Source of the DNA: Methylopila sp. 73B
Lineage (GTDB): Bacteria; Pseudomonadota; Alphaproteobacteria; Rhizobiales; Methylopilaceae
Reading direction: 5' to 3'
Length of the DNA stretch: 64,000 bases
Assembly (NCBI RefSeq): GCF_000526315.1
Contig: NZ_JAFV01000001.1
Span: 620,001-684,000, forward strand
Shown: positions 1 to 58,704 of the stretch, piece by piece
Layout: each line of letters starts with the position of its first letter
How positions within the stretch are numbered: the first letter of the stretch is position 1
The notes under the pieces: model-generated
What the model was told of the DNA's origin: nothing
Databases searched by the model: none
What the model saw: the letters and a program-made list of their open reading frames with translations, nothing else
Program-made: the position numbers and the translations under genes

Positions 1-3000
1 GCAACATGGTCGACCTTAAGGCTCTCGCCGAATGGCTTGAGATCAATGGCTTTTTTAGGTCTTCGACCGTCCGTGACTACGGTGAGTACGCCATCCGCGG
101 CGGCATCGTGGATCTGTTTCCCGCCGGCCACGCCGAGCCGATCCGGCTCGACTTCTTCGGCGACACGCTGGAGTCGATCCGGCCGTTCGATCCCGAGACG
201 CAGCGCTCCACCGGCCAGCTCCGCGCGCTCGACCTCGTGCCGATGTCCGAGGTGCAGCTCACCTCCGACACCATCCGGCGCTTCCGCCAGTCCTACGCCG
301 CGACCTTCGGGGCGCCGGGCCGCGACGACCAGCTCTACGCCGCGATCAGCGAGGGCCGGCGCTACGCCGGGCTCGAGCACTGGTCGCCTCTGTTCCACGA
401 CGGCATGGCGACGCTGTTCGACCATCTGGCCGACGCCCGCTTCGTGCTGGATCCTCTGGCCGAAGACGCAGCGGGCGAGCGTCTCGCGCTGATCGCGGAC
501 TATTACGACGCCCGCGTCACGCAGGCGAAGCAGGACAAGGGCGGCGGCGCCTACAAGCCGCTGAAGCCCGACGCGCTCTATCTCGCCCCCGCGGAGTGGC
601 GCGCGCGCCTCGACGAGATGGCGCCGCTGAAGCTGACGCCGTTCTCGCTGCCGGAGGGGCAGGGCGGGCGCGTGTTCGACGCCGGGGCCCGCGCCGGCCG
701 CAGCTTCGCCGCCGAGCGCGCTGACGAAAACGCCAACGTCTTCGACGCCGTCGCGGCCCACATCCGCGCGCTGAAGGAGGACGGCAAGCGGGTCGTCGTC
801 GCCGCCTGGAGCGAAGGCGCGCGCGACCGGCTCGGCACCGTGCTCGGCGACCACGGGCTGAAGGCGACCCGCAACGTCGCGAGCTGGCGCGACGCGATGG
901 CGCTGCCGAAGGACGCCGTGGCGCTCGGCGTGCTGGGGCTCGAGCAGGGCTTCGAGACCGACGAGGTCGTGGTCGTCGCCGAGCAGGACATTCTGGGCGA
1001 CCGGCTTGTGCGGGCGAAGGCCAAGCGCCGCCGCCCCCAGGACTATCTCACCGAAGCGGCCGGTCTCGCCGCGGGCGACCTCGTGGTGCACGTCGACCAC
1101 GGCATCGGCCGCTTCGCGGGGCTGAAGACCATCGAGGCCGCGGGCGCGCCGCACGACTGCGTCGAGCTGCATTACGCCAACAACGACAAGCTGTTCCTCC
1201 CCGTCGAGAACATCGAGCTGCTGACGCGCTACGGCTCCGAGGAGACCGAGGCCGTGCTCGACCGGCTCGGCGGCGCGGGATGGCAGTCGCGCAAGGCGCG
1301 CCTGAAGAACCGCATCCGGGAGATGGCGGGCGAGCTGATCAAGATCGCCGCGGCGCGCATGACCAAGGAGGCGCCGCGCGCGGTGCCGCCGGAGGGGCTC
1401 TACGACGAGTTCTGCGCGCGGTTCCCCTACGACGAGACCGAGGACCAGCAGGCCGCGATCGACGCGGTGCTGGACGATCTCGCCGCCGGCCGGCCGATGG
1501 ACCGGCTGATCTGCGGCGACGTCGGCTTCGGCAAGACCGAGGTCGCGCTGCGCGCCGCCTTCGTGGTGGCGATGACCGGGCGGCAGGTGGCGGTCATCGT
1601 GCCGACCACGCTGCTCGCCCGCCAGCACTTCAAGACCTTCGCCGAGCGCTTCCGCGGGCTGCCGCTGAAGGTGCGTCAGGCCTCGCGCTTTGTGTCCCAG
1701 AAGGAAACGACGGAGACCAAGAAGGGCCTCGCCTCCGGCGACGTCGACATCGTGGTCGGCACCCACGCGCTGCTGGGCAAGGGGATAGGGTTCAAGGACC
1801 TCGGGCTCGTGATCGTCGACGAGGAGCAGCACTTCGGCGTCGGTCACAAGGAGAAGATGAAGACGCTGAGGGCCGAGGTGCACGTGCTGACGCTCTCCGC
1901 CACGCCGATCCCGCGGACGCTGCAACTGGCGCTGACCGGCGTGCGCGAGCTCTCCATGATCGCGACGCCACCGGTCGACCGCCTCGCGGTGCGCAGCTTC
2001 GTGGCGCCGTTCGATCCGCTGATCGTGCGCGAGGCGCTGCTGCGGGAGCGCTACCGCGGCGGCCAGTCATTCTTCGTCTGCCCGCACATCGAAGACCTCG
2101 CCGCCGCCCGCAGCTTCCTCGAATCGCAGGTGCCCGAGGTGAAGTTCGTGGTGGCCAACGGCCAGATGGCGGCGGGCGACCTCGAGCAGGCGATGACCGA
2201 CTTCTATGAGGGCCGCTACGACGTGTTGCTCTCGACCGCGATCGTCGAATCCGGCCTCGACATCCCGAACGCCAACACGCTGGTGGTCTACCGCGCCGAC
2301 ATGTTCGGCCTCGCCGCGCTCTATCAGCTCCGCGGCCGCGTGGGCCGCGCTAAGACGCGCGCCTACGCGCTGTTCACAGTGCCCGCCAACAAGGCCCCGA
2401 CGGTGAACGCGGAACGCCGGCTCAAGGTGCTGCAGTCGCTGGAGGGCCTTGGGGCCGGCTTCCAGCTGGCGAGCCACGACCTCGACATCCGCGGGGCGGG
2501 CAACCTGCTGGGCGAGGAGCAGTCCGGCCACATCCGCGAGGTCGGCTACGAACTCTACCAGCAGATGCTGGAGGACGCGGTCGAGAGCCTGAAGGAGGGC
2601 GGGGCCGAGGTCGTCGCCGACCAGTGGTCGCCGCAGATCACGCTCGGCGCGCCGGTCATGATCCCCGAGGAGTTCGTCGGCGACCTCGCGATCCGCCTCT
2701 CGCTTTACCGGCGCCTCGCCGAGATCGACACCGACGAGGGGCTCGATTCCTTCGCGGCCGAACTGGTCGACCGCTTCGGCCCGCTGCCGAGCGAGGTGAA
2801 GCAACTTCTCGAGATCGCCGCCATCAAGGCGCTCTGCCGCCGCGCCAACGTGGAGAAGATCGACGCCGGGCCGAAGGGCGTGGTGCTGGCCTTCCGTGAG
2901 AATTCGTTCGCGAACCCGGACGGCCTTGTCCGCCACATTGCGATCGAAGAAGGCCCGAACGCCAAGGTCCGGCCGGACATGAAGATTGTGTTCAAGCGGG

Positions 3001-4019: not shown

Positions 4020-6185
4020 ATGTCCAACCGAACGAGCACCGCGGCGGAGGACGATCGCCCCGTTGGGGGAGAGATCGATCTGCGCGCGCTTGGCCGTGGG
4101 CTGTGGCGCCGCAGGTTCTGGATCCTCGGGCCCGCGCTCGTCGTCGCCGTGCTCGCCTTCCTGTTCGTTGAGCTCACCAGCCCCTACTACCGGGCGACCG
4201 CGCTGGTTCTGATCGAGAACCGCGACCAGCTCGCGCCCGGCGGCGGCGGGCAGGCGCCCCAGCTGCCCGACGAGCAGGCGGTCGCCACCCAGGTCCAGCT
4301 GATCCAGTCGCGCGATCTCGTGCGCCAGGTCGCGGCCAAGCTCGATCTCGGCCGGGACAAGGAGTTTTCCGCCGGCGACGGTTCGTTCCTGCAGAAGCTC
4401 GTCGGGCTGGTCGGTCTGGGCGACGTGGACGGCGATCAGCCGGTGCGCGAGCAGGTGGTCGACAAGGTCGCCAAGAACCTGTCCGTCTACCCGGTGTCCG
4501 GCGCCCGCGTGATCGGGATCGAGTTCGTCTCCACCAACCCGGACCGGGCCGCCAACGTCGCGAACGGCTTCGTGGACGCCTATTTCGACATCCAGCGCGG
4601 CGCGAAGCGCGACCAGAACCGCCAGGCCGTCCAGTATCTCTCCGAAGAGATCGAGCGGATGCGCGACCGCGTCAGCGAGGCCGAGGGCAAGGTCGAGGCG
4701 TTCCGCGCCAAGGCCGGACTGCTCGTCGGCGGCGGCGGCACGACCGTCACCGCCCAGCAGCTCGGCGAGATCAACACCCAGCTCGGTTCGGCGCGCACCC
4801 AGCAGGGCGAGGCCCGCGCGAAGGCCGACCTCATCCGCGACCTCCTGCGCCAGGGCCGGCCGGCGGAAGCGCTCGACATCGCGAACTCGGACGTCGTCCG
4901 CTCGCTGGTGCAGCAGCGCTCCCAGCTCGCCGCGCAGATCGCGAGCGAGGGCCGCACGCTGCTCTCGCAGCACCCGCGGATGCGCGAACTCGCGGCGCAG
5001 CTCACCGGCCTCGACGTCTCGATCCGCACCGAGGCGGAGAAGCTTGCCCGCGCCTTCGAGAACGAAGCCAAGTCCGCCGGCGCCCGCGTGGCGGCTCTCG
5101 AAGGCAGGCTCGAAGACCAGAAGTCGGTCGCGGCCACCGCGAACGACCAGGACGTCCAGCTTCGGGCGCTCGATCGCGAGGCGCGGACCCAGCGCGACCT
5201 GCTGGAGCAGATGCTGACCCGCTACCGCGAGACCTCGGCGCGCGACAACCCCGACGCGCTGCTGGCCGACGCCCGCATCATCACGAAGGCCGCGGCGCCA
5301 AGCGAGGCCTACTTCCCCAAGAAGATTCCGACCATCGTGCTCGCGACCCTCGGCGCCTTCGTGCTGGCGCTGTTCGCGGCCGCGACCGCCGAGGTGTTCA
5401 GCGCGGCCGGCCGCCGCCCGGAAGACGAGGACGCCGCGCCGCCGCCGCCCGCGGTGGGCGAGACGCCCGTGTTCGGCCGGCTTCAGGGCGCGGCCTACCA
5501 GACGCCGACGGAGACGGCCGCCGCGCCGGCGGCGGCCCCGCCCCCGCCGGGCCTTACGCCCTCGCGGGCGGAATCGATCGAGGTCGCGGACGCGGCCCTC
5601 GTGTCGGCGCTCGCCCGGCAGCTCGCGGCCATGCCGACGTCCAGCGGCGCGCTGCGGATCCTCGCGACCGGCGCGCGCGCCGACGTGTCCGTCGACGACG
5701 TCGCGACCAATCTCGCGCGCATCCTGTCCGAATCCGGCCGCCGCGTCGTCGCCGTCGACGCCGGGGGCGGCGCGCCGCGCCTCGGCGACGAGGCCACAGG
5801 GCCGGGCCTGGCCGAACTGCTTGAAGGCTCGGTGACCTTCGCCCAGGCGATCCATCGCGACCGCGGCTCGCGGGTGCACGTGGTGCCGCGGGGCGGGACG
5901 GCCTACGCGTCGCTCGACGCGGCCGCCCAGGGGCGCCTCGGCGTGGTGCTCGAAGCGCTCGCGCTCACTTACGATTTCGTCCTGCTGTCGACGCCTGGTG
6001 GAGTCGGCGCCGCCGACGCCTTCACGCCGCATTGCGAGGCTGCGATCCTGGTCTCCAACACCGGCGCCGGCGACGTCGCGACGGTCGACGCTCACGACCG
6101 GCTGAAGGCGACGGGCATCGAGGACGTCGTGGTTCTCCTCAAGCGCGACATCGGCCCCGACGACGGGTCGCGCCTCGCCGCCTGA
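4020..6185 (+). CDS. GumC/Wzz-family exopolysaccharide chain-length protein with degenerate kinase domain
   Basis: This 721-residue inner-membrane polysaccharide co-polymerase has a first membrane helix near residues 35-55 after a basic segment, then a Wzz domain and a long coiled periplasmic region (about 200-400). A GNVR-like region and second membrane helix lie near 440-455. The cytoplasmic C-terminal part (from about 530) has the fold pattern of a bacterial tyrosine kinase or ParA ATPase (RILATGARADVSVDDVATN, then VVAVDAGGG). The expected GxGKS/T P-loop lysine is absent, and the protein ends without a tyrosine cluster. It probably controls chain length but is unlikely to be an active kinase. 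Confidence 0.88.
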   Translation: MSNRTSTAAEDDRPVGGEIDLRALGRGLWRRRFWILGPALVVAVLAFLFVELTSPYYRATALVLIENRDQLAPGGGGQAPQLPDEQAVATQVQLIQSRDLVRQVAAKLDLGRDKEFSAGDGSFLQKLVGLVGLGDVDGDQPVREQVVDKVAKNLSVYPVSGARVIGIEFVSTNPDRAANVANGFVDAYFDIQRGAKRDQNRQAVQYLSEEIERMRDRVSEAEGKVEAFRAKAGLLVGGGGTTVTAQQLGEINTQLGSARTQQGEARAKADLIRDLLRQGRPAEALDIANSDVVRSLVQQRSQLAAQIASEGRTLLSQHPRMRELAAQLTGLDVSIRTEAEKLARAFENEAKSAGARVAALEGRLEDQKSVAATANDQDVQLRALDREARTQRDLLEQMLTRYRETSARDNPDALLADARIITKAAAPSEAYFPKKIPTIVLATLGAFVLALFAAATAEVFSAAGRRPEDEDAAPPPPAVGETPVFGRLQGAAYQTPTETAAAPAAAPPPPGLTPSRAESIEVADAALVSALARQLAAMPTSSGALRILATGARADVSVDDVATNLARILSESGRRVVAVDAGGGAPRLGDEATGPGLAELLEGSVTFAQAIHRDRGSRVHVVPRGGTAYASLDAAAQGRLGVVLEALALTYDFVLLSTPGGVGAADAFTPHCEAAILVSNTGAGDVATVDAHDRLKATGIEDVVVLLKRDIGPDDGSRLAA

Positions 6186-33808: not shown

Positions 33809-35005
33809 TCAGCCCTCATTCTCTTGGACCTTCGGCAGTTTTTCCGACGCCCCCGCAGTCGGCGCTTCGGGATAATTTCGGGACAACCCGAACGAGGACA
33901 TGACGTCCCGCAGGTCCTCGTCCAGCACCTTCGCGTAGCGCGCGGTGGACGCTATGTCGGAGTGTCCGAGCATCCGCTGGACACCCTTCAAATTCTTCGA
34001 GCCCCGGAGCGCGCGCGTCGCGGCGTCGTGTCTGGCGTCGTGGAACCGGAACTCTGGGACGCCGGCCGCCCTCCGAGCTGCGTGATGGGCCTTCGTGAGG
34101 GTGTCGTAGCCGATTGGCTCCCGGCTGCCCTTGAGCCGCTTACGGTCTCCGGTGGTCCGCGATTGCTGCACCTCGTAGGTGAACACGACCGGCAGCGCAT
34201 GCTTCAGCATCTCTGCCTCGAAGATCGCGCGCACCTCGGGCGAAAAGGGGACGAAATGCTCCTTTGGAGCTTTGCCGCGCGCCCGCTTCAGAGTGATCGT
34301 GAAACCTCCGCGCTCGCGGTCGACCGCCGATCTGGGCAGGCGGCAGAGCGCAGCGCGCCTCACGCCGGTGAGCAGGTAGACCTTCACGATGGGCCGCAAG
34401 TCCTCGCGGAACGCTCCGATGTAGGCCGCGCGCTCGGCGTCAGTCAGGATGCGCGTCCGCTCGCGCTCCGGCAGCAGCAGATCCCTCCAAGGAATGTCCA
34501 CGTCGACCGGCACTCTCCAGACTCGCCGGGCGCGATTCAGCAGGCGCCGGGCGCACTGAACGATCTGGCGGTTCACCGTCGCCGGCGAGACAAGCCCGTG
34601 TTCGTTTGAGCCCTTGCGGGTCTTGATTGAAACGCGCTCTGCGGAGCGTCGGCGGACGGCGTCGGAAATCATGTTGGCATCGATCGAGATCAGCGGGGTC
34701 GTTCCGCCGATCAGCCGGCAGAGATGCGCCAGTGATGTCGCGGTGTCGTCGGCGCTCGCCTGGTGGCTGATCTCGCCATGGTAGCGGAAGGCGGCTTCGT
34801 CGAGCGTCAGCGCGTGCTGGAATTTCCCGGTCGCCGCTAGCTCGCGGTACTGGTTTTCGACACGCTCCGCTTTCGTGCGCGTTCTCTGGCCCGTTGAGCC
34901 GTGAAAGCGACGACGCTCCCCGGACGGCGTGCGGATGACGAAGTCGTAGTGCCAGAACTCCGAGCGGTAGGAGCCGTCTGAGCGCTTCGGTCTGTAGACG
35001 GACAC
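33809..35005 (-). CDS. int: Prophage tyrosine recombinase (integrase)
   Basis: This 398-residue phage integrase has an N-terminal arm-binding segment (MSVYRPKRSDGSYRSEFW, then FHGSTGQRTR) and a SAM-like core-binding domain. The catalytic domain shows the first arginine in LLTGVRRAALCRLP, HDARHDAAT (HxxR), MLGHSDIASTARY (second histidine and nucleophile tyrosine). It reads toward the tRNA half at 33738, the normal position beside the attachment site. The preceding excisionase-like gene overlaps it by 169 bp in another frame. Confidence 0.95.
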   Translation of the reverse strand: MSVYRPKRSDGSYRSEFWHYDFVIRTPSGERRRFHGSTGQRTRTKAERVENQYRELAATGKFQHALTLDEAAFRYHGEISHQASADDTATSLAHLCRLIGGTTPLISIDANMISDAVRRRSAERVSIKTRKGSNEHGLVSPATVNRQIVQCARRLLNRARRVWRVPVDVDIPWRDLLLPERERTRILTDAERAAYIGAFREDLRPIVKVYLLTGVRRAALCRLPRSAVDRERGGFTITLKRARGKAPKEHFVPFSPEVRAIFEAEMLKHALPVVFTYEVQQSRTTGDRKRLKGSREPIGYDTLTKAHHAARRAAGVPEFRFHDARHDAATRALRGSKNLKGVQRMLGHSDIASTARYAKVLDEDLRDVMSSFGLSRNYPEAPTAGASEKLPKVQENEG

Positions 35006-53225: not shown

Positions 53226-53458
53226 ACGAGTGGCGCGACATCGATACGGCACCGCGTGACAGGCACATCTTCGTCTATGCGCCGGGTGCTGAGTTCGACC
53301 TGCCGGATATCGTCTCGCTCTGCCGCTGGCACCCAGACGCGGGCTTCTGCGTCGACGAGCTTCGTTACCCGACGCTCTGGGCCGAGATCGACTACCCCGC
53401 ACCGCCCGCCACCCCCTCCGCCCACTCTGTCGCCAAGCAGGAAGCTGAGCCCCGATGA
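53222..53458 (+). CDS. DUF551-like phage protein
   Basis: This 78-residue protein begins MNEWRDIDTAPRDRHIFVY, the typical opening of DUF551-type small phage proteins, with SLCRWHPDAGFCVD following. No known function. Confidence 0.65.
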   Translation: MNEWRDIDTAPRDRHIFVYAPGAEFDLPDIVSLCRWHPDAGFCVDELRYPTLWAEIDYPAPPATPSAHSVAKQEAEPR

Positions 53459-54093
53459 GCATCGCACAGAAGCGCCGCGCCAAGATCGCCTCCCGTGGCC
53501 GCAACCGGATGCAGGGGCCGCGAGAGCCAAACGGCCGCATCGATCGCAAGTGGCTAGCCGAGCAGCGCACTGAGAACGAGAAGATGGAAAGCCAGAGGGC
53601 CATCCAGCGGGCCACAGAGGCTCGCCAGCGGGTTTTCGGCCTGAGCGCGTCCCATGCCGCCCAAGCCGAGGCATCGACCGTTCTGGGCCGCCTGTGGCTC
53701 GCTTACGACGCGTCCAAGGACTACGCCATGGGCATCGACCGCGATCAATACGACGCGGCCATGCGCTACCAGACGATCCGCAACTGCTACCAGCGCGCCA
53801 AGGGCATCGCACCGGACTACACCGAGCCCCGGCCGGAAGAGGGCGGCGGCGGTGACGAGGTGTCCTACGAGGATTGGGCTGTCGCGGCTGCTGCTCGCTA
53901 TGACGGCATGGTGGAGGTGGTCGATGCCCTCTGCGTTTCACACCGGACCCCCGCGCCGAAGGAAGCTCTCCGCCTAATCGTGCTCGCGGATCAGGACATT
54001 CCCGAGCTAGTGGGCTCGCTTCGGCTAGTGCTCAACGCCCTCGCAAAGCACTTCTCAGGGCAGAAGGCGATGAGGCCCGAGATGGCGGCTTGA
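53455..54093 (+). CDS. Last gene of the early operon, unknown function
   Basis: This 212-residue protein has a basic N-terminus (AQKRRAKIASRGRNRMQGP) and a helical middle (DQYDAAMRYQTIRNCYQRAK). Located where late-gene regulators (antitermination Q-like) are often found, but no zinc site or family motif is seen. Followed by a 600-bp gene-free region. Confidence 0.6.
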   Translation: MSIAQKRRAKIASRGRNRMQGPREPNGRIDRKWLAEQRTENEKMESQRAIQRATEARQRVFGLSASHAAQAEASTVLGRLWLAYDASKDYAMGIDRDQYDAAMRYQTIRNCYQRAKGIAPDYTEPRPEEGGGGDEVSYEDWAVAAAARYDGMVEVVDALCVSHRTPAPKEALRLIVLADQDIPELVGSLRLVLNALAKHFSGQKAMRPEMAA

Positions 54094-54098
54094 CACGG

Positions 54099-54666
54099 GG
54101 GCGCAAATCTGACTCAGTGATGTCACCCTCTTAAATCTCCGATTTGCGCCCGCACCGGTTTGCCGAGGCGGGTTTAGGGATTCCAGCGGCAGGCGGAGCA
54201 GGACGCGCAGGCTTCATCGCCCATCACCCGAACGGTGGCCACGCTAAGGGCGCGCTGGATGTCAATCGGGCTGCCACCATCACCCCGATTGGATGCCTGC
54301 AACCGGCCCGGCCTTGGCGACTGGAACTCGCTTCGGTCAGGTCGGTTGTTCCCCGCCTCAGGGACACAGTGAGGCTCAGCCGCCGGCGGCGAACCAAGGC
54401 CGGAGCTTAGCACAAGCGGCTGACGAAGACCTGGTAGGCAGCCGGCCCGCAAGGGCGCTGAGTAGGGCGACAATTCAGTTCGACGGGAGGCCTCTTCGGA
54501 GGCGGAGGCCCAACAGCCTGCTGGGGATCGTTGGGGACGTGCCGGAAGCTCGGGAGAGCGGTCAGCCCTATCGCGCAAGCGCATCAGGGGACACGGGGTA
54601 ACACGGTCGGTGGAAGCTCTCTCGTTGATCCATCAGCCGTCCGGGAGCGATCTCGGGCGGCTTTTT
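54099..54666 (+). ncRNA. Candidate large structured phage RNA
   Basis: This gene-free 570-bp stretch lies between the early and late modules. Perfect helices: 54099-54109/54141-54151 (11 bp), 54183-54188/54253-54258, 54263-54270/54284-54291 (8 bp), 54300-54305/54343-54348, 54355-54360/54370-54375, 54398-54403/54442-54447, 54490-54503 (UUCG tetraloop), 54509-54514/54530-54535, 54548-54559, and 54561-54592 with a GCAA tetraloop. It ends in an intrinsic terminator. No reading frame across it looks coding. It does not match RNase P or tmRNA as I know them. Confidence 0.45.
54635..54666 (+). terminator. Intrinsic terminator before the late genes
   Basis: A 12-bp stem with one G-T pair (54635-54646 / 54651-54662), tetraloop GCGA, followed by TTTT. 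It would end transcripts entering from the structured region. Confidence 0.85.
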
Positions 54667-54711
54667 CATTTCAACCACGCTGGCCTCTGCGGAGGCGGAA
54701 AGGCGAACGCC

Positions 54712-54987
54712 ATGACTGACCAGACCGAAACCCTCGTCGAGTTTAAGATCCGCCCCATCGTCCGCTATGCGGTGACGAAGTACGAGTACACCTCGAACGG
54801 TGGGACTGGAAAATCTTCTCAACTCGGCGTCTACGACAACTTCGACACCTCGTATGAGGTTGGCGTTGCGCTGGCGAGGGGCGAGCAGCAGCGCCTTGGC
54901 GTCGAACCGTTCAGCATGGCTGTGGTGTTCCCATCCGATGTTCAGCCGGTCGTGGATGCCGCGAGACGGGTCGCCGGTCAGGCCTGA
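54712..54987 (+). CDS. Small phage protein
   Basis: This 91-residue protein starts at ATG 54712 after a purine-rich leader. It has an alpha/beta pattern (FKIRPIVRYAVTKYEYTSN; then GVEPFSMAVVFPSDVQPV). First gene after the terminator, so it needs its own promoter in 54667-54711 or beyond. Unrecognised. Confidence 0.65.
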   Translation: MTDQTETLVEFKIRPIVRYAVTKYEYTSNGGTGKSSQLGVYDNFDTSYEVGVALARGEQQRLGVEPFSMAVVFPSDVQPVVDAARRVAGQA

Positions 54988-56537: not shown

Positions 56538-57005
56538 ATGGCCCGTCCTCGCAAGCCTTCGCACCTGAAGGTCGTTTCGGGCACGGCTCGGAAAGATCGC
56601 GACAACCCGAACGAGCCGACTGCACCGATGGGTGCGCCCGACGCGCCGATCTGGCTCTCGGATCGGGGCGCTGAGATCTTCGCCGGCCTCTGCGCTACGA
56701 TCCACGGCATGGGGTACCTGTCGACGGCTGACCAAGCGGTTCTGGCGATGGCCGCGAGCCGGCTGGAAGAGGTCGAGATCGCGACGGCTCGAGTGGAAGA
56801 CGAGGGCCGGACCTACGAGACGCACAATGCCCAAGGTGAGCGGATGATCCGCCCCAACCCGATGGTGGCGCAGCGTTCGGAGGCCATGCGGCATGCGCAC
56901 GCGCTGTTGTCCGAGCTTGGGCTGACGCCTGCAGCTCGGTCGAAGGTCTCGGCGGGCAAGAAGACAGACGATAACCCGTTCAAGGCGCTGATGGGTGCCG
57001 GATAG
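56538..57005 (+). CDS. terS: Terminase small subunit (P27 family)
   Basis: This 155-residue protein starts with MARPRKPSHLKVVSGTARKD, the P27-family opening, and has LSTADQAVLAMAASRLEEVE. It recognises the packaging site and stimulates the large subunit. Overlaps terL by 11 bp. Confidence 0.9.
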   Translation: MARPRKPSHLKVVSGTARKDRDNPNEPTAPMGAPDAPIWLSDRGAEIFAGLCATIHGMGYLSTADQAVLAMAASRLEEVEIATARVEDEGRTYETHNAQGERMIRPNPMVAQRSEAMRHAHALLSELGLTPAARSKVSAGKKTDDNPFKALMGAG

Positions 57006-58704
57006 AAACTATGCCGCGGTCGCAGAGCGATACGCGCAGGAGGTTGTCAGCGGGAAGATTGCGGCGTGCCGATGGGTGTGCCTTGCCTGCCAGCGGCATC
57101 TCGACGACCTGAAGGCGTCGAAGCGCAAGGACTATCCCTATCGGTTCGACGCCGAGGCGGCCCGTAAGGTCTGCGCCTTCATCGAATTGTTGCCGCATGT
57201 GAAGGGGAAGTGGGCGTCGAAGCGCGAGCTTTTGGCCCTGGCTCCGTGGCAGGTGTTCAAGACAGCCGTTCTGTTCGGGTGGTTGAAGAAGGCGGACGGC
57301 AATCGTCGCTTCCGCCGCGCGGTCATTCTCGAGCCTAGGAAGAACGGCAAGTCGGCGTGGGCCGCCGGCGTCGGGCTCTACATGTTCGCTCTCGATGGAG
57401 AGCACGGTTCGGAGGTCTATTCCGGCGCCACGAGTGAGAAACAGGCTTGGGAGGTCTTCAGACCTGCGAAGTCGATGGCGGCTAAGACCCCTGCGCTGCT
57501 GAGCGCATGCGGCATCACCGTCAACGCGTCAAACCTGCATATGCTGGGGAACGAGAGCCGGTTTGAGCCGATGATTGGCAAGCCGGGCGATGGCTCGTCG
57601 CCGCACTGCGCGATCATCGACGAGTACCACGAGCACGAGACGGACGACATGGTTTCGACCATGGAGACCGGCATGGGCGCCCGTGAGCAAGCGCTGCTTC
57701 TGATCATTACGACCGCGGGCACGAATGTCGCCGGTCCTTGCTACCAGGCTGTCGTCGAAGCGCGGCGGATGCTGGAGGGGATCACCGACGATCCCGAAAC
57801 CTTCTCACTGATGTACGGGATCGATCCTCCGCGGGGGAAGCCAGAGGATCCGGACTATTTCGCCGGCGATGACTGGACCAAGCCGGAGACGCTGAAGAAG
57901 GCCAACCCGAACTTTGACGTGTCGGTGCGTGGCGAGTTCCTGCTGTCGCAGCAGCGCGACGCGATCAACAACGCCCGCAAGGCGTCCGCTTTCCGCACGA
58001 AGCACCTGAACGAATGGGTGTTCGCGAAAGAAGCCTACTTCAACATCGCGAAGTGGATGGCGTCCGCTGAGGACGGCCTTCGCATGGAGGACTTCGCCGG
58101 TCAGCCCTGCACAGTGGGGCTCGATCTCGCGAGCAAGGTCGACATCGCCGCGGCGGTGTTCCTGTTCCGCAGGCCTCAGGGCGGGTTCGCAGCTTTCGGC
58201 AAGTTCTACCTGCCTGAGAAGACGATCGAGCTAGAGGCGACGGGCAATTACGTCACATGGGAGCGCGCCGGTCGCCTGATCAAGACCGAAGGCGACATGA
58301 TCGACCACGAGAAGATCCTCGAGGACATCGTGGCGGCGTCCAAAGTCTACACGATCGACAGCATTGGGTATGATCCAGCGCAAGCGACCATGCTCATCAC
58401 TGCGATGATGAAAGAGAACCTGCCGGTTGTTGAGTTCCGACATACGGTTATGACGATGTCGGAGCCGATGAAAGAGGTCGAGGCCCTTATACGGTCTCAG
58501 AAGATCGCCCACGACGGCGACCCGTGCTTCGCCTGGCAGATCGGCAACGTCGTCACGAAACGCGACGACCCCAAAGACAACGTCTATCCGCGCAAAGAGC
58601 GTGCAGAGAACAAGATCGACGGCGCTGTGGCGCTGATCATGGCGATGGGTCGCCAACTGGTCGGAGCAGACCAGCCCATCGACGTCATGGCGATGATCGC
58701 CTAG
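56995..58704 (+). CDS. terL: Terminase large subunit
   Basis: This 569-residue HK97-type terminase has a GTG start overlapping terS. ATPase: LEPRKNGKSAWAAGVGL (Walker A), HCAIIDEYHEHE (Walker B), LLIITTAGTN (coupling motif). Nuclease: VGLDLASKVDIAAAV and the late acidic ENKIDGAVALIMAM. Gene length and motifs are complete. Confidence 0.95.
   Translation: MPDRNYAAVAERYAQEVVSGKIAACRWVCLACQRHLDDLKASKRKDYPYRFDAEAARKVCAFIELLPHVKGKWASKRELLALAPWQVFKTAVLFGWLKKADGNRRFRRAVILEPRKNGKSAWAAGVGLYMFALDGEHGSEVYSGATSEKQAWEVFRPAKSMAAKTPALLSACGITVNASNLHMLGNESRFEPMIGKPGDGSSPHCAIIDEYHEHETDDMVSTMETGMGAREQALLLIITTAGTNVAGPCYQAVVEARRMLEGITDDPETFSLMYGIDPPRGKPEDPDYFAGDDWTKPETLKKANPNFDVSVRGEFLLSQQRDAINNARKASAFRTKHLNEWVFAKEAYFNIAKWMASAEDGLRMEDFAGQPCTVGLDLASKVDIAAAVFLFRRPQGGFAAFGKFYLPEKTIELEATGNYVTWERAGRLIKTEGDMIDHEKILEDIVAASKVYTIDSIGYDPAQATMLITAMMKENLPVVEFRHTVMTMSEPMKEVEALIRSQKIAHDGDPCFAWQIGNVVTKRDDPKDNVYPRKERAENKIDGAVALIMAMGRQLVGADQPIDVMAMIA

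Follow-up and report, generated by a model that had tools for sequence, protein, structure and literature searches.

In phage lambda, a short terminated transcript, the late leader or 6S RNA, lies between Q and the late genes, and protein Q together with a DNA site overcomes its terminator. The EAR element, a structured RNA of ~120 nt located between genes of the Bacillus exopolysaccharide operon, promotes processive antitermination. In HK022 the put RNA, ~70 nt folded into two stem-loops, modifies RNA polymerase alone, without a dedicated phage protein (PMC9378689). The zinc-binding domain of the polymerase β′ subunit mediates put-type terminator read-through. Structured RNAs of other kinds are also carried by phages: GOLLD and ROOL are often found near tRNA islands, and GOLLD joins a conserved 3′ region to a variable 5′ region, with many members exceeding 800 nt (PMC12286853), while cabRNA of staphylococcal phages is a structured RNA that arises in their terminase region (PMC10686824).

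Here we describe a conserved RNA core of ~150 nt (54480-54628, + strand) at the boundary between early and late genes of a prophage in the window, the whole stretch of 64,000 nucleotides of Methylopila sp. 73B DNA that was analysed. The core belongs to a structured RNA family of alphaproteobacterial phages and prophages that is unmatched in Rfam. It is a new family within the general kind of structured phage RNAs, with a putative function, and we regard the existence of this family as nearly certain. An undescribed structured RNA at this boundary had been proposed in the initial annotation, and the proposal is upheld both by the lack of an Rfam match and by compensatory changes in homologues. 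Like lambda 6S RNA, the core follows the last early gene and precedes the late ones, with a terminator that would have to be overcome for late expression; unlike the lambda system of DNA site and protein Q, the core RNA is itself conserved in structure. It resembles EAR as a structured RNA among the genes of a long operon, whereas EAR belongs to a bacterial operon of Firmicutes and the core has no Rfam match. With cabRNA it shares a position at the terminase region, but cabRNA derives from the terS/terL coding sequence and its own sequence differs between phages, whereas the core is a conserved non-coding RNA.

The prophage in the window has its integrase at 33809-35005 and its terminase at 56538-58704, with head genes further downstream. 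Its last early gene (53455-54093, +) encodes a 212-aa phrog_15385 protein of unknown function, and the first ORF past the terminator (54712-54987, +; 91 aa) has a homologue in virus contig L006, where it comes after the RNA. The interval 54094-54711 (~620 bp) holds no credible gene, its contained ORFs being mechanical. A conserved reading frame was sought across related phages and none was found, the spacing of conserved blocks shifting by 1-2 nt and by non-multiples of three. The gap had been read beforehand as free of any plausible gene, with a UUCG loop, GCAA loops and a terminal intrinsic terminator, and all of these observations hold: the UUCG loop occupies 54495-54498, GCAA loops occur as well, and the core is followed, ahead of the first late ORF, by a terminator with a 12-bp stem (54635-54662) and a T-rich tail (to 54667, +). 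An inverted repeat with GCGCAAATC was also observed right after the phrog_15385 stop codon, both in the window (GGGCGCAAATC...GATTTGCGCCC, 54099-54151, +) and, as a similar GCGCAAATC...GATTTG in the same place, in phage Mae-JY35 (41432-41492); from its sequence, it is possibly a late-promoter/operator region.

Folding energy did not distinguish this region from shuffled sequences. The whole 577 nt gave an MFE of -260 against -253 ± 6.4 for shuffles (z -1.18, with 12 of 100 shuffles equally good), the 5′ 387 nt alone gave a z of -0.94 and the core alone 0.29. With z-scores only between about +1 and -1.7, thermodynamic stability was discarded as evidence for an RNA. Many perfect helices are expected by chance because the DNA is GC-rich, and helix counts alone prove nothing about RNA structure. 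Of the ten or more helices counted earlier across ~570 nt, those within 54480-54628 are backed by homologues; the region as a whole folds no better than shuffles.

At the gathering score, a search of the window with Rfam 15, GOLLD and ROOL included, left the RNA at 54480-54628 unmatched. The covariance-model check suggested at the outset was thus carried out, and no family matched even permissively: with E up to 10, positions 54000-54760 and the Mae-JY35 locus gave unrelated sub-threshold matches only. Searches of L053, L007 and L009 (E up to 1-3) returned tRNAs together with weak sub-threshold YrlA and Plastid-ycf2 matches over those tRNAs. The idea that GUGCC...GCGGU resembles the 530 loop of 16S rRNA was dropped as unsupported. 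No description of the core RNA was found in the open-access literature, which leaves its unpublished status unproven.

The region containing helices P3 to P6 recurs in nine other phages or prophages, from alphaproteobacteria or metagenomes, and in one decayed Bosea copy. The nine relatives are Mae-JY35, Bosea, two Methylobacterium, a Bosea-family genome (L053, whose contig is too short to reveal phage genes) and virus contigs L006, L008, L057 and L058; together with the window and the decayed copy (L049) they form a set of eleven sequences. Among public phages and plasmids, Microcystis phage Mae-JY35 was the sole match, over 82 bases inside a ~970 bp non-annotated stretch reaching from the last early gene to the terminase end (record circularly continued). 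Directly upstream of the RNA in this phage is a weak relative of the 212-aa protein of the window, both being phrog_15385; searching viral contigs through this upstream protein gave no relatives. A gapped pattern built from the window and Mae-JY35 recovered virus contigs L006, L007, L008 and L009/L010 and, from ~85,000 genomes, Methylobacterium platani, Bosea sp. and M. gregans, where L010/L014 are apparently one M. platani locus and L007/L017 one M. gregans locus. The covariance model added L053 at 73 bits and, at 42 bits, L049, which is a second and divergent copy in Bosea, while window positions 54508-54605 score 98.6-101.7 bits. A final search with 22 bases of the P5 region as pattern yielded L057 and L058, which score 74 and 84 bits with the model and are thereby confirmed; both were picked by this pattern alone, yet carry P3, P4 and P6.

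Model scans of the family and order of the host (397 and 396 genomes, apparently the same sample), of its class (385 genomes) and of its phylum (398 genomes) found nothing new; about ten candidates were scored per genome, so that absence here is weak and the rarity of the RNA family may be overstated. A match in Caulobacter phage CcrPW (E = 6) lacked the core, and pattern matches L011, L013, L015, L018 and L020-L042 lacked a convincing model match. Hosts could be placed for five members, all alphaproteobacteria, the remainder being virus contigs and Mae-JY35. The RNA of the latter (L005, PP438426.1; recorded from Microcystis) is the one found in alphaproteobacterial prophages, and the phage may actually infect an alphaproteobacterium present in the culture. 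The divergent Bosea core (L049:1501-1592) sits next to DNA glycosylase-like and catalase-like ORFs with phage genes absent, and is probably a decayed remnant.

The core runs from P1 to P1′ on the + strand, and its definition comes from the covariance model, ten relatives and covariation, with P1 assigned by direct pairing. The P1 arms, TCGACGGGAG (54480-54489) and CTCTCGTTGA (54619-54628), form 10 bp. P2 (54490-54503), recognized from sequence and fold and confined to subtype I, is the hairpin GCCTC-TTCG-GAGGC with the UUCG loop. P3 (54509-54535; CCCAAC/GTTGGG) has variable arms and shows two-sided changes at five of its six pairs. P4 (54538-54605; CGTG/CACG), in which a T-A pair becomes C-G in four members, encloses the most conserved part of the molecule (GCCGGAAGCnCGGGA...GCGGTCAG...GACACGGG). 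Within P4 lie a nearly invariant purine-rich sequence and the hairpins P5 (54548-54559; GCTC-GGGA-GAGC, with a GNRA-type loop, supported by the covariation alignment) and P6 (54566-54589; CCCT...AGGG, with an inner GCAA-capped stem), the last varying from ~25 to 90 nt across members. Sequence elements of the core include GCCGGAAGC and GGTCAG, and ~50 bases are invariant among the first seven members.

The first seven sequences served to draw the P3-P6 structure, which was tested on them and then on nine and eleven sequences; in the first model seed, one linker A was removed from three sequences, keeping the helices in register. In the eleven-sequence alignment, which consists of true sequences fitted by the model and hence leans towards it, 96.4% of cells at the 20 pairs are paired and 10 of the 20 pairs changed on both sides. 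The covariation score was 0.497; shuffles gave 0.152 ± 0.023, and the observed value was attained by none of the 500. When the structure was slid along the alignment pairing fell to 35-58%, a one-base slide giving about 40%. P3 contributes the bulk of the signal, while P4, P5 and P6 each have one clean two-sided pair. The comparison of homologues called for earlier has thus been made, and compensatory changes were found in the helices of 54480-54628.

P1 was tested apart from P3-P6, on unaligned flanks. Complete helices of 9-10 bp occur at nearly the same offsets (TCGACGGGAG/CTCTCGTTGA, TGATGCGAG/CTCGCATCA, TTTGCGAGAG/CTCTCGCAAA, TCAGCGGGCG/CGCCCGCTGA, TCGGCGAGAG/CTCTCGTCGA), those of M. gregans, L008, M. 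platani and Bosea being made of different letters at near-identical distance to P3/P4. Arms swapped between members still paired at 78%; judged from these sequences, the P1 helix is supported, but partly through shared letters. A second subtype (Mae-JY35, L006, L053, L057, L058) is without P2 and has a shorter P1 adjoining P3, which is clear in L006 and L053 and weaker in the other three.

Conservation is confined to the core. For the non-coding 5′ region of the window (54094-54479, +) neither conserved structure nor conserved sequence was found, and pairwise blastn between the 5′ parts of the loci gave only chance matches of 10-15 nt. A conserved 5′ domain was rejected on this lack of detectable relatives; helices within 54094-54479 are unsupported, and chance folding or an overlooked gene is possible there. 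The extent of ~570 nt given initially thus shrinks to a conserved unit of ~150 nt, and in three relatives (L008, L057 and M. gregans) the space between genes is tight and contains little besides the core.

Nine phages had a readable gene context, and each of them carries the RNA on the late-gene strand. In seven it stands between the early genes and the terminase: the window, Mae-JY35, L006 (via L054), M. gregans (L056), M. platani, Bosea and L058. In the other two it lies within the head operon, between large terminase and gpW in L008 and between portal/head-tail genes and the head protease in L057. The RNA of L008 begins ~5 nt past the terminase stop codon, and is therefore probably part of the operon mRNA. 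A strong terminator separates the core from the first late ORF only in the window and M. gregans (2 of 10 loci), where the distance from T-tract to ATG is ~45 and ~15 nt, respectively, leaving little room for another promoter. Such terminators are rare elsewhere: across the 88 kb that follow nine cores, a home-made scan detected six on the sense strand, two of them directly after the core against ~0.07 expected by position, a rough figure.

The strand, the location before or within the late operon and the squeezed terminator in two phages favour a cis-acting role at late entry, and we tentatively prefer, by analogy, the reading that the core governs transcription into the late genes through put-like read-through. 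In such a mechanism the core would act in cis within the transcript entering the late (packaging/head) operon: the nascent RNA would fold, its invariant P4/P5 part would bind RNA polymerase or an elongation factor, and the modified complex would read through the 54635-54662 terminator and later ones, much as HK022 put does for early genes. The non-coding 5′ part would then be promoter and leader, outside the conserved fold. In this reading the core would resemble putL/putR, being a phage RNA that transcription crosses before it reaches terminators and a long operon. It differs in its size of ~150 nt, its multibranched form, its place at the early/late boundary and its alphaproteobacterial phages; put, which is not known to be related to it in sequence, serves the early operons of a lambdoid phage. 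Against a cis-acting role, 8 of 10 loci have no terminator right after the core, a terminator-like site immediately precedes the core in L057, and the tRNA genes close upstream in 3 of 10 loci would equally fit a processed free RNA. The broader proposal, that these RNAs form an RNA-only (or RNA plus host factor) class of antiterminator that switches on the late operon of temperate alphaproteobacterial phages and has spread as a module across unrelated packaging machines, is rather doubtful. In the L006 phage a NusG-like protein (PF02357; L054:11438-11974, -) is encoded among the early genes, ~2 kb upstream of the RNA; such a protein as obligatory partner was rejected, being nearby in one carrier phage only.

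The main rival, possible and given a lower probability than the cis-acting element, is a free trans-acting phage RNA like GOLLD or ROOL, with its own late promoter, the core as conserved 3′ domain and a variable 5′ domain, released by a terminator or by tRNA-processing enzymes. GOLLD and ROOL are known from phages, and the core shares with them a phage or prophage location (9 of 9 with context), tRNA neighbours (Met in L006, Thr and Asn in M. platani, Gln in L053) and a conserved 3′ part behind a variable 5′ part. Non-coding 5′ parts of ~150-800 nt in several loci, promoter-like upstream sites in Bosea, L058 and L053, and the terminator directly past the core in two loci would suit such a transcript. 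However, GOLLD and ROOL covariance models found no match, the 5′ parts share no detectable sequence, most loci have no terminator, and the large, ornate conserved 3′ half of GOLLD is replaced here by a unit of ~150 nt to which three loci add little, some members being just the core inside head operons. A tRNA-3′-end-like fragment (GGTTCGACTCCGGC...CCACCA) lies at ~655-690 (- strand) of L006, some 120 nt past the core; it may be what is left of a tRNA gene, or else an attachment site. Downstream of the core, L053 (~1775-1920) and L009 (~4190-4370) share a second non-coding block, in three short pieces at 80-85% by blastn, which has no Rfam match and was not seen in the window; by its sequence it could be another structured RNA.

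An attenuator sensing a ligand or protein is improbable. Here, closed P1 would let the terminator form, and an alternative helix between CTCTCG of the P1 3′ arm and CGGGAG of the terminator 5′ arm would open the late operon. In the window these arms are close together and complementary over ~6 bp as predicted from sequence, and the many invariant bases resemble those of sensing RNAs, but M. gregans does not have the same arm overlap and most relatives have no terminator at that place. Still less probable is a self-cleaving ribozyme or a processing element for mRNA or tRNA: the compact multibranch fold with many invariant bases, and the location of the core between tRNA and mRNA in some loci, would be compatible with it, but Rfam ribozyme families are unmatched.

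Packaging, one of the roles suggested originally, now appears very improbable, whether as a pRNA-like molecule or as a pac/cos site. Its position upstream of or within packaging/head genes in all nine phages would agree with such a role, which would tie the RNA to one packaging machinery; instead, the highly conserved core accompanies four unrelated large-terminase families, namely phrog_9 (window, M. platani, L058), phrog_38 (L006, Bosea), phrog_15 (L008, M. gregans) and phrog_3717/phrog_2 (Mae-JY35), which disfavours packaging and suggests an independent module. The UUCG and GNRA loops and multibranch pairing also point to an RNA rather than a DNA site. That there is no RNA at all, only chance folding or an overlooked gene, deserves almost no credence: the thermodynamic z-scores are not significant, but covariation far exceeds shuffled and slid controls and no frame is conserved, which already refutes this reading for 54480-54628.

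To our knowledge, the switch to late transcription in temperate alphaproteobacterial phages, including those of Methylobacterium, Bosea and relatives, is little described. A compact RNA with many invariant bases and compensatory changes, shared across unrelated terminases, offers a concrete candidate for a control element. If it is a free RNA instead, it would add a member to the enigmatic GOLLD/ROOL-like phage RNAs.
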